Shown here: in pieces, positions 9,415 through 15,123 of the stretch
How the letters are laid out: every line of letters begins with the position of its first letter
How positions within the stretch are numbered: the first letter of the stretch is position 1
Assembly: GCA_019115125.1 (NCBI GenBank)
Contig: DXEG01000049.1
Span: forward strand, 1-36,883
Direction of reading: 5' to 3'
DNA from: Candidatus Blautia faecipullorum
GTDB lineage: Bacteria > Bacillota > Clostridia > Lachnospirales > Lachnospiraceae
DNA length: 36,883 nt
Position numbers and translations under genes: made by a program
Notes under the pieces: generated by a model
What the model saw: the letters and a program-made list of their open reading frames with translations, nothing else
Database searches by the model: none
What the model was told of the DNA's origin: nothing

Positions 9415-9648
9415 TCACCTCCTATTTTTTATACCTTCTTCCAAAAACACCCGAAGATTCTCGTTATTCTCGCGTAGTCCCATTTGAATTTCATATAATG
9501 AAAAACCAACTGCGTTTTCTGCTGTTCCCCTGACTTCCACTAATTTATCTTTAGAAATAAGCAGCTGCAATATTCCAACAAGTGCTTCCAAACGCTCATT
9601 TTTAAATATCATGTCCTCTAAATCAAAGATATTGAACTCCTTCTCCAT
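9415..9648 (-). CDS. Small acidic phage protein, 77 aa, unknown function
   Basis: A helical, acidic protein beginning MEKEFNIFDLEDMIFKNERLE and ending EEGIKNRR, without a membrane segment or cysteines. Its ATG overlaps the stop of the upstream antirepressor gene (TAATG), and GGAGGTGAC lies in that gene's last codons, so translation is coupled. I recognise no family. The predicted all-helical composition could indicate a small protein-binding factor. Confidence 0.55.
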   Translation of the reverse strand: MEKEFNIFDLEDMIFKNERLEALVGILQLLISKDKLVEVRGTAENAVGFSLYEIQMGLRENNENLRVFLEEGIKNRR

Positions 9649-10238
9649 TACCTTGCGTCACCTCCATATCCAAAATTCAATTTCATATGCTCATACTCAG
9701 GAACTTTCACGAAATCCTCTGGAAGTTGGATTCCATATTGCTCTGAAACCATTTTGAGGGCTTCTGCAATTTTATAGGGGGCTATCCCTTCTTTTTCCAT
9801 ACGCCTATCTATGACTTTAAGATAATTTGCCACTTCTCCCGGATGCTCTGTGAGAGGCGCTTTTCTTACTAATTTTTTAGCGCCATTTTCTATCCCAACA
9901 AAATAGTTTCGTGCCGCTTCGCCTTTCTCATTTTTCTGCATCATAGAAAGTTTCTTAGCGAAGCCAGCGGTAAGTCTGGCATCTTGACGTTTCCCTACTG
10001 TATTTCCATGCTCGTACTGAAGTACGAACAGGAAATAATCAACCGTTTCCTCGGCAAACTGATTTTCAGTAATATTCTTTTTAAACCACTTAGAATAGTT
10101 ACTTGGATTTAATTCCAGGAACTCGTAAAGTCTTGTTGCCGTCGTCATTCCCTGTGCATCAACTCCTAAAGCAATTTCGATAGGTGTCTGTTTCTCTGTG
10201 TTTGGTGTACCAAACGTTTCTTTAAAAATATCGTTCAT
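9648..10238 (-). CDS. AntA/AntB-type antirepressor protein
   Basis: A 196-residue protein. Residues about 20-110 match the AntA/AntB antirepressor domain: PIEIALGVDAQGMTTATRLY, then a Trp-Phe turn (YSKWFKKNI), VDYFLFVLQYEH, and the helix DARLTAGFAKKLSMMQ. AntA-domain proteins are thought to release prophages by blocking the lysogeny repressor. The C-terminal 80 residues (EHPGEVANYLKVIDRRMEKEG...) are a separate helical domain without a family I recognise; no KilAC domain is present. The ribosome binding site is AGAGGAAG. It follows the larger antirepressor by 21 bases in the same operon, giving the phage two such proteins. Confidence 0.8.
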   Translation of the reverse strand: MNDIFKETFGTPNTEKQTPIEIALGVDAQGMTTATRLYEFLELNPSNYSKWFKKNITENQFAEETVDYFLFVLQYEHGNTVGKRQDARLTAGFAKKLSMMQKNEKGEAARNYFVGIENGAKKLVRKAPLTEHPGEVANYLKVIDRRMEKEGIAPYKIAEALKMVSEQYGIQLPEDFVKVPEYEHMKLNFGYGGDAR

Positions 10239-10259
10239 TTTCTTCCTCTTTTCGTTAAA

Positions 10260-11192
10260 TTATTTTGTTTCCCCTGCTGTGCCACCCAGAAACTTATTGA
10301 TAAAATACTGCTGCCCTTTTCCAGTAACCTTTGTAGTTTTGTTAATCCTGACAGAACCATCTGGATTATTTACGGTGGATTCTTTTACTTCGAAAAGTCC
10401 CATCTCCATAGATTTCTGAGTCGGCATGTTCCAGTCAGTACCTTTTCTTCTAATCAAGTACCCGTTTTCTCGCATCCAACTGAAAAGACGTTTCTGCCCT
10501 GTCTCTACACCGTTCTGTTTAAGAAGCTTGGCAAGATCACCGATAAGAATTGCTGTATGACTCGTTGCTACCGCATCAGCAAAAATGGCTTTCGGCTTCA
10601 TTCGTTCAATGATTTTACTTTGATCAGCAATCATTTGCTGCGCAGCCTTTAACCCTCTGGCCATTACAAGCTCTGGTGTATTCCATGCCTTTTCGAGATC
10701 AATGAAATACTGCCTATACATTCTCCCTTTTTCGGTACGCTGAATCATACAGGTTTGTTTGGCCATATCGATGGAAATTTGGTAATCTGAAAATTCTGTT
10801 AATGGATTCTTCGGATTATTGGTTTCTCTTTTTTGAGTAACCAATACGTAGTCAGCGTTCTCCTCAAACCCATAGGCTGCCATTCTCGGAAACCAATCAG
10901 CAAATCGTGTTCTAATTTCCAATCCCTCATACAAATCCCTTGCCGATACAGTTGGTTTCTCTGCGCTATAATTGATTTTTATTAATTCGCTCATGTCCTG
11001 CTTTCCGCCAGGGGTGTTACATTTCGCTACCCCCTTATCTTCTTCCTCCACATGTTTTGAAAGAGCATCCCTCTCATTGGTGTAGCCGAGAGCCTTTGCG
11101 ACATCTTTTCCTACAAACCACGGCTCGTTGTCAATAGTTGACGTTCGGATTTCTCTAAACTCTTCGTTTTTAAAAATCTGTAATTCCTGCAT
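10260..11192 (-). CDS. Composite antirepressor: partial BRO-N, AntA and KilAC domains
   Basis: A 310-residue phage antirepressor-type protein made of three recognisable parts. Residues 1 to about 66 resemble the first half of a BRO-N domain (IDNEPWFVGKDVAKALGY, HVEEEDKGV, TPGGKQ). Residues about 67-165 are an AntA/AntB domain that begins exactly as free-standing AntA proteins do, with MSELIKINYS. Residues about 195-300 are a KilAC domain (GQKRLFSWMRENGYL, then TGKGQQYFINKFL). The BRO-N part stops before its usual C-terminal half, so this looks like a recombinational fusion. A good AAAGGAGA site precedes the ATG at 11192. Just upstream (11211-11227) lies a near-perfect copy of the operator palindrome of the lysogeny switch, so expression is probably repressed in the lysogen. 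Confidence 0.87.
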   Translation of the reverse strand: MQELQIFKNEEFREIRTSTIDNEPWFVGKDVAKALGYTNERDALSKHVEEEDKGVAKCNTPGGKQDMSELIKINYSAEKPTVSARDLYEGLEIRTRFADWFPRMAAYGFEENADYVLVTQKRETNNPKNPLTEFSDYQISIDMAKQTCMIQRTEKGRMYRQYFIDLEKAWNTPELVMARGLKAAQQMIADQSKIIERMKPKAIFADAVATSHTAILIGDLAKLLKQNGVETGQKRLFSWMRENGYLIRRKGTDWNMPTQKSMEMGLFEVKESTVNNPDGSVRINKTTKVTGKGQQYFINKFLGGTAGETK

Positions 11193-12863: not shown

Positions 12864-12945
12864 TCTAAACAATAATATATTTACCCGGACAGCCGGGAGG
12901 GCGTGCATACCATCCGCCCTGAGTCTTGACAGGAGGATGATGCTT

Positions 12946-13026
12946 ATGACTACATATGAAGAAATGCAGATTTTACTAACATTCGCATTACTAGTTGTTG
13001 CAATTCTGAATTTGAAAAATAAGTAA
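12946..13026 (+). CDS. Holin-like toxin peptide (Hol-Tox type I toxin), 26 aa
   Basis: A 26-residue peptide starting MTTYEEMQ, with one hydrophobic helix (ILLTFALLVVAILNL) and a short basic end (KNK). This is the pattern of the putative holin-like toxin family, small membrane peptides considered toxins of type I toxin-antitoxin pairs, in which an antisense RNA blocks expression. AGGAGG lies nine bases before the ATG at 12946; an earlier in-frame ATG at 12940 is too close to it. The leader contains inverted repeats (CCCGG/CCGGG, AGGGCG/CGCCCT), typical of translationally buried type I toxin messages. A consensus promoter faces it from the right and should produce an overlapping antisense RNA (13015-13119). 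Family assignment is by sequence pattern; toxicity is untested. Confidence 0.8.
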   Translation: MTTYEEMQILLTFALLVVAILNLKNK

Positions 13027-13119
13027 GCCGCCCTGCTCCTTGGCCGGATGGGCGACTTACTAAGTTTGCTTTAATTCGCCGGGACGGATAGGTGTTCTCT
13101 ATCTTCCGGCTGTCTTGTT
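13015..13119 (-). ncRNA. Predicted antisense RNA antitoxin overlapping the toxin mRNA 3' end
   Basis: A promoter on the minus strand (13126-13153) should start an RNA near 13119 running left. It would fold a first hairpin (CCGG/CCGG plus GATAG/CTATC, 13079-13109). It would end at a second hairpin whose arms are 13024-13033 and 13050-13059 (nine of ten bases pair), followed on the minus strand by CTTATTTTT, an intrinsic terminator. The RNA is thus about 105 nucleotides and pairs with the last codons and 3' untranslated region of the toxin message, the geometry of TxpA/RatA-type pairs. Ends are predicted, not measured. Confidence 0.65.
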
Positions 13120-13125
13120 AAGTAT

Positions 13126-13153
13126 ATTATAGCAAATATACTGAAAATGTCAA
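13126..13153 (-). promoter_or_regulatory. Consensus promoter for the antisense RNA
   Basis: On the minus strand a perfect TTGACA (plus 13148-13153) and a perfect TATAAT (plus 13126-13131) are 16 bases apart. No open reading frame with a start signal follows leftwards before the toxin gene, so the product should be a short RNA. Confidence 0.75.
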
Positions 13154-13818: not shown

Positions 13819-13938
13819 CAAGTAACGCTCCGAAGAACGATACCCTAATCCAAACATATTGTATCATCTTCGGGGACAGCGGGCAATCAGAAAGTTTGTT
13901 TGCTGTTATTTTTGTACTCAAAAAAGGAGGATGATTAT

Positions 13939-15029
13939 ATGGCTACTGCAAAGAAACTGAACTCAGGAAGCTGGCGCTGCCAAGTGTACAGCCACACAGA
14001 GGATATTATTCAGCCGGATGGAACTATAAAGAAGAAAAGGATCTATAAATCCTTCACCTGCGACGTACCGGGGCCGAAGGGAAAGCGGATGTGTGAACGG
14101 ATGGCGGCGGATTGGGCGGAGAACAAGGATTACAAAAACCTAAAATCTGATTTGACTATGGGGGAAGCCACTGATCTCTATATCAAGAACCGAGAAGCTG
14201 TGTTATCGCCCTGCACGATCAGAGATTACAAAAGGATCCGCAAAAATGATTTGAAGCTGCTTGAGAATTTAAAGATAAGCAGAATCACCCAGGAGGACGT
14301 CCAGAAGGCAATCAACCTGGAATCACAAAATCATAGTCCAAAAACTGTGAGAAATACCCATGGCCTTATCTCCGCCGTATTGCGGCAATATCGGCCCGAT
14401 TTCGCTTTAAATACTTCCATGCCAAGAAAGTACGTCCGAACATCTACGTGCCGTCTGACGGCGATATACAGCGCCTGATCAGCTACGTAAAAGGCACTGA
14501 GCTGGAATTGCCTGTGCTGCTAGCAGCATTTGGCCCTATGCGGCGCGGAGAGATTTGTGCGTTGGACAGCAAAAATATATCCGGCAATGTTGTTCACGTC
14601 TGCTGCAACATGGTACGCACGGAAAAAGGTGACTGGATCATCCGGCAGCCAAAGAGCTATGCGGGGGATCGCTATATAGATTATCCAGATTTTGTTGCAG
14701 AGAAATGGGCCGGCATCCACGGCAGGATTGTCCACCTGAATCCAAATAACGTTACAGATAGATTTCACCGTGCTTTAGAATCTTCCGGTCTCCCTCGTTT
14801 CCGGTTCCACGACTTGAGACATTACTCAGCTTCCATTCAGCACGCTCTGGGGATCCCGGATAGCTACATCATGCAGCGCGGCGGATGGGGGAATGATGGG
14901 GTGCTTAAATCCGTGTATAGGCATACAATGGAGAGTAAGGCAAGAGAAATGAATGAGATTGTCAATGCTCATTTTTCTGAACTATGCAACACGAAATGCA
15001 ACACGAAAAAAAAAAGCGCCCATAAATAG
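13939..15029 (+). pseudogene. Tyrosine-type phage integrase, split by a one-base frameshift
   Basis: The element's integrase, which should recombine phage and tRNA attachment sites. The first frame (13939-14478) has an AP2-like N-terminal arm (SGSWRCQVYSH) and a SAM-like core-binding domain (LTMGEATDLYIKNRE). After about residue 163 it reads out of frame to a stop. The second frame resumes at about 14432 (RPNIYVPSDGDIQRL) and carries all the catalytic landmarks: Arg in PMRRGEICAL, HDLRH, GGWGND and the Tyr of VYRHTM. One added A in the run at 14422-14430 (CCAAGAAAG to CCAAAGAAAG) restores a continuous protein of about 362 residues. AAAGGAGG precedes the ATG at 13939. It is either a real inactivating mutation or a sequencing error. 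It ends 12 bases from the tRNA gene. Confidence 0.9.
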
Positions 15030-15041: not shown

Positions 15042-15123
15042 TGCCGCTGGCCGGACTCGAACCGGCACGGTTTGATCCGCTTGATTTTGAGTCAAGTGCG
15101 TCTGCCAATTCCGCCACAGCGGC
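15042..15123 (-). tRNA. tRNA-Leu (anticodon CAA), probable prophage attachment site
   Basis: The minus strand folds as a class II tRNA of 82 bases. The acceptor arm is GCCGCTG/CAGCGGC with discriminator A. The anticodon stem is CTTGA/TCAAG around loop CTCAAAA, giving anticodon CAA, which reads UUG leucine codons. A long variable arm is present, and the T arm has GGTTCGAGTCC. The 3' CCA is not encoded. The integrase gene ends 12 bases beyond its 3' end, and phage genes occupy only that side, so the 3' part of this tRNA is the likely attachment site. The second copy should lie left of the window. Confidence 0.93.

Follow-up and report, generated by a model that had tools for sequence, protein, structure and literature searches.

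The analysis of the window, i.e. the entire stretch of 36,883 nucleotides from Candidatus Blautia faecipullorum (contig DXEG01000049.1), revealed a locus whose assignment as a type I toxin-antitoxin system of the TxpA/BsrG kind is well supported by sequence comparisons, and which exhibits an unusual, mirrored layout of the two predicted RNAs. Systems of this type are hard to find because their peptides are tiny; here, a single signature, comprising the antisense -10 hexamer and start, retrieves more than 100 sites, mostly from Lachnospiraceae, a major family of gut bacteria. New here are the predicted location of the Shine-Dalgarno (SD) sequence in a covarying hairpin, the predicted pairing of the 5' and 3' ends of the toxin mRNA, the putative toxin promoter devoid of a -35 element, and an antisense RNA whose predicted 5' end nearly repeats the toxin leader.

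The putative toxin gene and its genomic context

The original prediction of a gene for a 26-residue Hol-Tox peptide was confirmed: the ORF (12946–13026, plus strand, stop included) starts with ATG at 12946, ends with a stop codon at 13024–13026 and encodes MTTYEEMQILLTFALLVVAILNLKNK, which scores 24.7 bits against the Pfam Hol_Tox model (cut-off 23.3). As expected of a type I toxin, this member of the Hol_Tox family is short and hydrophobic, with a charged C-terminus. An SD sequence, GGAGG (12932–12936, plus strand), ends 9 nt upstream of the ATG, and the alignment with relatives placed the -10 hexamer of the toxin promoter, AATAAT, at 12871–12876 (plus strand), with no -35 element.

A prophage occupies the left part of the window and has genes for a primase, a helicase, a Sak4-like protein, antirepressors, a metalloprotease and an integrase, while chromosomal genes (CorA, chorismate synthase) are found to the right of tRNA-Leu. 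The locus lies at the prophage edge, flanked by an XRE/metalloprotease pair and a Uma2 gene. The integrase is split over two overlapping reading frames (13900–14478, N-terminal, and 14448–15029, catalytic) and is therefore probably broken; it adjoins the tRNA-Leu (15042–15123, minus strand), the likely attachment site. Two adjacent antirepressor genes (9648–11192) encode AntA and AntA plus KilAC.

The predicted antisense RNA

The claim of a perfect TTGACA-N16-TATAAT promoter on the opposite strand was also borne out: the -35 hexamer (13153–13148, minus strand, identified from sequence and conservation) and the -10 hexamer (13131–13126, minus strand) are separated by 16 nt and match the consensus at 12 of 12 positions, with TG preceding the -10. 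A promoter of this quality occurs in only 3 of 383 control windows (150 bases each) from related loci. The promoter, the fold and the conservation together predict an antitoxin RNA of about 105 nt (13015–13119, minus strand). It would end at a terminator hairpin (13022–13061, minus strand) evident from sequence, fold and covariation, in which a 12-bp stem (13061–13050 with 13033–13022) is followed by CTTATTTTT at 13023–13015, in agreement with the earlier suggestion of a hairpin and U-run closing a short minus-strand RNA. The U-run (13020–13015) overlaps the last toxin codons. An automatic terminator scan, limited to loops of 3–8, found no site in the window locus; the loop of the antisense terminator exceeds this limit. 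The folding energy of the RNA (13119–13014) is -37.6 kcal/mol (z -5.24), which none of 200 shuffled sequences equalled. A second hairpin identified by folding (13078–13110) would stand at the 5' end of the antisense RNA, and its plus-strand counterpart is likely to form the end of the toxin mRNA. Thus, sequence and conservation place a promoter and a terminator opposite the toxin gene, as in type I systems. The two predicted RNAs converge, and the promoter, start and hairpins are conserved, in keeping with the prediction of an RNA of about 105 nt covering the 3' end of the toxin message in the manner of TxpA/RatA.

Conservation of the antisense promoter

Public genome contigs were scanned with the antisense -10 and start motif only, and the antisense start was identified in 113 genome-contig stretches and 8 IMG/VR contigs. 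Among the 80 contig titles listed, 76 denote Clostridia, Lachnospiraceae included; the remaining four are two contigs of a single bin titled 'uncultured bacterium', one from an uncultured Firmicutes and one from a Candidatus Mailhella bin. A -35 hexamer that agrees with the consensus at five or more of its six positions, at a distance of 15–19 nt, is present at 112 of 123 sites (perfect in 82). The corresponding counts are 82 of 2420 for positions drawn at random and 91 of 1081 for the remaining TATAAT sites of the same loci. The promoter and hairpins, which the original prediction required to be conserved beside homologous peptides, proved to be so.

Removal of identical segments left 119 elements. 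The toxin pattern found a toxin in 90 of them, and 88 remained once two odd ones (L149, L154) had been dropped. The other 31 elements, sorted by eye and partly re-read by script, comprise one intact toxin of the window type (L089), 12 with another peptide, 14 whose toxin gene is broken or absent (L154 and L170 included, as judged by eye) and 4 cut by the locus end. The other peptide is a short membrane protein of the MYVTYSDLF type, seen facing the antisense start in L062, L065, L076, L079, L081, L090, L113, L125, L137, L140 and L142, with L149, possibly truncated, completing the 12. None of the nine such peptides searched reached the Hol_Tox cut-off, and four matched the model below it (E 1e-4 to 0.011). 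These loci look as if toxin cassettes had been exchanged between identical ends; a comparable toxin swap is described for bsrG/SR4 loci in the excerpts of PMC6562991 cited here. Orphan antisense ends, with promoter and start retained beside a truncated or lost toxin gene, were observed in L060, L075, L078, L083, L111, L118, L120, L146, L150, L151, L161 and L171, as well as in L003, L034 and L045.

A complementary search of a Lachnospiraceae sample used the leader and toxin alone as the query, which avoids selecting for the antisense RNA, and yielded matches in 38 of 299 genomes. Loci were obtained for 30 of the 50 listed places, the window among them; two of the 29 others (L218, L230) have no toxin ORF, and TATAAT with the antisense start motif is present beside 26 of the 27 intact toxins, L228 being the exception (24 toxins, 23 with the start, were found by script, and L216, L221 and L223 were added by reading). 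In the genus, 25 loci were chosen as a non-exhaustive set. They contain 26 ORFs that start with MxTYE or MxDYE, two of them broken (L042 by a C-terminal fusion, L033 by a frameshift). TATAAT plus a -35 element accompanies 21 of the 24 unbroken ORFs; in L189 only GATAAT stands in place of TATAAT, and the orthologues L038 and L191 exhibit an intact toxin ORF with neither the antisense -10 nor the -35. The two independent cases of an intact toxin with no antisense start (L228 and L038/L191) count against the toxin-antitoxin reading. It may be remarked post hoc that the toxin of L228 carries a lysine within the hydrophobic stretch and that the toxin -10 of L038/L191 has decayed.

Predicted structure of the toxin mRNA

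The toxin mRNA was analyzed in an alignment of the window and 71 relatives (less than 92% alike), drawn from 87 with the full leader, all fetched with the antisense pattern. In five helices comprising 27 pairs, 91.8% of cells are paired, and both sides have changed in 111 cells; shuffled alignments give 33.2 ± 6.1 such cells and slid controls no more than 36. The relatedness of the sequences inflates these counts. Folding and covariation predict a leader hairpin (12905–12943, plus strand) that closes the SD sequence; its cognate halves pair with a mean energy of -15.26 kcal/mol versus -11.9 kcal/mol for permuted ones, the best of 5000 permutations reaching -13.08. In having its ribosome-binding site (RBS) enclosed in a predicted helix, the toxin mRNA agrees with the TxpA/BsrG group.

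The same lines of evidence predict a panhandle, in which the 5' arm in the leader (12884–12899, plus strand) pairs with a 3' arm (13103–13117, plus strand) that is a target common to the leader and to the antisense 5' end. Cognate pairing of the leader 5' end with the mRNA 3' end scores -31.2 versus -29.1 ± 0.32 for permuted partners, and at least 6 long-range pairs are expected in each of the 72 sequences. All four Watson-Crick combinations are seen at the pair 12890/13112 (C-G in 41 sequences, G-C in 18, U-A in 3, A-U in 2, with 5 wobbles and 3 mismatches); most letters at the antisense start were predetermined by the search pattern, but not the one opposite 12890. The covarying pairing of the leader with the 3' end leads to direct predictions, accessible to mutagenesis, on how such toxin mRNAs stay silent and on whether the leader of the message faces competition from the antitoxin.

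The mean predicted exposure of the SD sequence is 0.29 in the full mRNA versus 0.26 with the 3' UTR blocked, and that of the AUG is 0.31 versus 0.43. We therefore do not claim that the antisense RNA switches the SD sequence between an open and a closed state, as the SD hairpin is closed with or without the 3' UTR blocked.

Mirrored ends of the locus

Comparison of the leader side with the antisense side of the window locus revealed a 28-base alignment with a score of 31 (shuffles: 16.9 ± 2.0, none of 300 as high). As the ends of the toxin mRNA are complementary, the antisense RNA is predicted to begin with a sequence closely matching the toxin leader, and consequently the leader and the antitoxin can compete for the same mRNA 3' end. 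The two promoters are unlike, the antisense one with and the toxin one without a -35. In the relatives, a toxin -10 was found in 81 of 86 cases, a count flattered by taking the best hexamer per 30-base stretch. A -35 matching at five or more positions is present in 2 of 86 (random expectation 3.3%), which led us to dismiss a strong toxin promoter.

The mirrored ends invite a tentative proposal, which we regard as possible but on balance doubtful: that the antitoxin RNA serves as a decoy for the leader, derived from an inverted duplication of the toxin promoter and 5' leader, that the copies would be kept matched by competition for the toxin mRNA 3' end, that a three-way competition would set the output within a mirrored unit of about 290 bp common to several Hol_Tox subfamilies, and that the surviving orphans of the antisense RNA might work in trans.

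Relationship to known systems

The Hol_Tox model that identifies the window toxin also matches bsrG of the B. subtilis prophage SPbeta, a 38-residue ORF between yokL and yolA (31.8 bits), and the Rfam search of that stretch identified BsrG with 210 bits. Within the TxpA/BsrG group, the toxin homology is to BsrG, one Pfam model covering the window toxin and SPbeta bsrG. Among 4227 Rfam families, BsrG obtained the best E-value for the 321 bases of the window locus (E 0.014, 19.0 bits). This is below the gathering score of RF01412 (55 bits), as are the scores of L205, L046 and L173 (22.5–34.4 bits; E 0.013, 0.0017 and 7.4e-5, respectively). In two Rfam searches, 2 of 3 and 7 of 9 loci gave no BsrG match at E ≤ 1; L046 was the sole one to give such a match among seven additional loci whose toxin is of the window's type.

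According to the cited excerpts of PMC6562991, bsrG/SR4 exhibits convergent RNAs overlapping at their 3' ends, an RBS in a short helix and duplex cleavage by RNase III. The leader of SPbeta bsrG is also complementary to its 3' UTR (shuffle P 0.013), so the pairing of the ends may be old. The window locus differs from bsrG in its 26-residue rather than 38-residue toxin, in its multiple copies and occurrence in Lachnospiraceae, and in its antisense start, which is predicted to lie inside the mirrored stretch, whereas the best promoter candidate of bsrG puts this stretch well inside the antisense RNA. As judged by the predicted ends, the RNAs overlap at 13015–13119, i.e. only at their 3' ends, as in the TxpA/BsrG group (about 75–140 nt). 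The txpA/RatA pair of the B. subtilis skin element is similar by its published description: the excerpts of PMC3531473 and PMC4147584 report convergent RNAs, a 3' overlap of 75–120 nt and RNase III-dependent decay, while TxpA has 59 residues and these excerpts mention no mirrored leader.

The par locus of pAD1 (Fst, RNA I/RNA II), as portrayed in the excerpts of PMC7472228, shares the small membrane toxin, convergent promoters, an SD hairpin and a sequestered 5' end, but its toxin belongs to another family. In par, complementarity between antisense RNA and leader stems from direct repeats, whereas the repeats of the window locus are inverted. The long-distance lock of the toxin mRNA and the local SD-closing hairpins resemble those of aapA/IsoA and hok/Sok (described in parts of PMC6733600), which are Gram-negative systems, while the window antisense RNA would pair with the mRNA 3' end instead. 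The relevant parts of a Clostridia review (PMC6563280) list only predicted TxpA-like and Fst-like sequences from the family (C. bolteae, C. asparagiforme), and among the papers listed by keyword searches of the open-licence literature, none deals, by title or abstract, with such a locus in Lachnospiraceae.

Proposed mechanism and alternative explanations

A type I toxin-antitoxin system with a silenced toxin mRNA and an antisense RNA is, in our judgement, very probably the best explanation of these sequence features. The weak toxin promoter without a -35 would produce an mRNA of about 235 nt (by its predicted ends), encoding a one-helix membrane peptide. Folding and covariation suggest that this mRNA is silent twice over, with the SD sequence in a local hairpin and the 5' end tied to its own 3' end. 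The strong promoter on the opposite strand would give rise to the RNA of about 105 nt, complementary to the whole 3' end of the mRNA. By analogy with txpA/RatA and bsrG/SR4, RNase III would cut the long duplex of the two RNAs and thereby remove the toxin message; in the excerpts of PMC6562991, PMC6563280, PMC3531473, PMC4147584, PMC7472228 and PMC6733600, the type I mechanism is described as a 3'-end duplex, decay by RNase III and an RBS closed by a few GC pairs. Upon loss of the locus or arrest of antisense transcription, the antisense RNA would decay first and the leftover mRNA might be translated. Should the antisense RNA release the leader from the 3' end and no decay ensue, translation would be favoured instead of blocked, a point against the mechanism.

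Alternatively, the peptide might be a small membrane protein that serves in housekeeping or, like a holin, in the phage; the antisense RNA would then only tune its level, and the two would not form a toxin-antitoxin pair. Its toxicity is putative, the Pfam name being merely 'putative holin-like toxin', and the intact peptide genes of L228 and L038/L191 have no antisense start. However, the peptide matches the same Pfam model as bsrG, the message appears to be silenced in layers (SD hairpin and panhandle), 14 of the 119 elements keep the antisense ends beside broken or missing toxin genes (by eye), and divergent copies occur several per genome; we therefore consider this explanation unlikely.

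Copies of the locus and its mobility

The genome of the window contains seven DNA matches to the locus, the window's own included, and five have a full toxin ORF; the four further full copies all reside on other contigs. In the genus, the locus was matched in 22 of 64 genomes, and Hol_Tox in 33 of 64 at E ≤ 0.01, over the cut-off in 24. Searches with tblastn revealed one weak match of the toxin (E = 1) among 50,697 phage records and one weak match among 72,556 plasmid records. The original suggestion that the locus may stabilise the prophage rests on the position of this one copy; four further full copies occur on other contigs, and the phage records gave a single weak match. Prophage maintenance as the role of the family found no support in the phage and plasmid searches. 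A Uma2 match was found within 700 bases in 7 of the 119 elements (two beside one gene), a count covering only matches to the window's Uma2; a partnership was discarded, and the proximity is taken as a coincidence of two multi-copy genes.

For the five full copies of this genome, the modelled duplexes of non-cognate RNAs have energies of -84 to -120 kcal/mol versus -199 to -235 kcal/mol for cognate ones, with perfect stretches of 9–22 nt versus 94–114 nt, which suggests that any cross-talk would be weak.

Inverted repeats at both ends of the unit, dispersed copies with unrelated flanks, and presence or absence among congeners would also befit a MITE-like mobile unit, in which the inverted ends are transposon ends and the peptide is incidental. 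The sites of L002 (G000:C59) and L005 (G000:C9) are shorter in congeners (G050 and G010), and the extra DNA of L002 includes a Uma2 remnant. In these two flank searches the filled and shorter sites measure 667 vs 35 and 888 vs 82 bases; as the extra DNA exceeds the unit size at both sites, the ends of the insertions do not lie at the repeats. Given also that the promoters and covarying RNA pairs reside in the repeats, we rejected MITE-like mobility, and the corresponding explanation of the locus seems very improbable. Still less credible is an accidental antisense overlap of a minus-strand promoter serving another transcript, which conflicts with a promoter directed at the toxin, a terminator within about 105 nt and a promoter position kept beside 26 of 27 toxins fetched without it.

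The type I toxin-antitoxin layout with mirrored ends may extend to other Hol_Tox subfamilies, as suggested by leader/3'-UTR complementarity with z-scores from +0.6 to -7.7 (crude shuffles), although several of their antisense promoters, taken alone, are no better than chance. Inspection by eye of L008, L014, L015, L016, L017, L018 and L020, further Hol_Tox or Hol_Tox-like genes from the genome of the window, suggested that they too have two RNAs with similar starts. In L025, L026, L035, L048 and L050, a CCGCCCC hairpin-like stretch followed by Ts was seen by eye on the antisense strand just upstream of the -35, and such a terminator-like element may insulate the antisense promoter.
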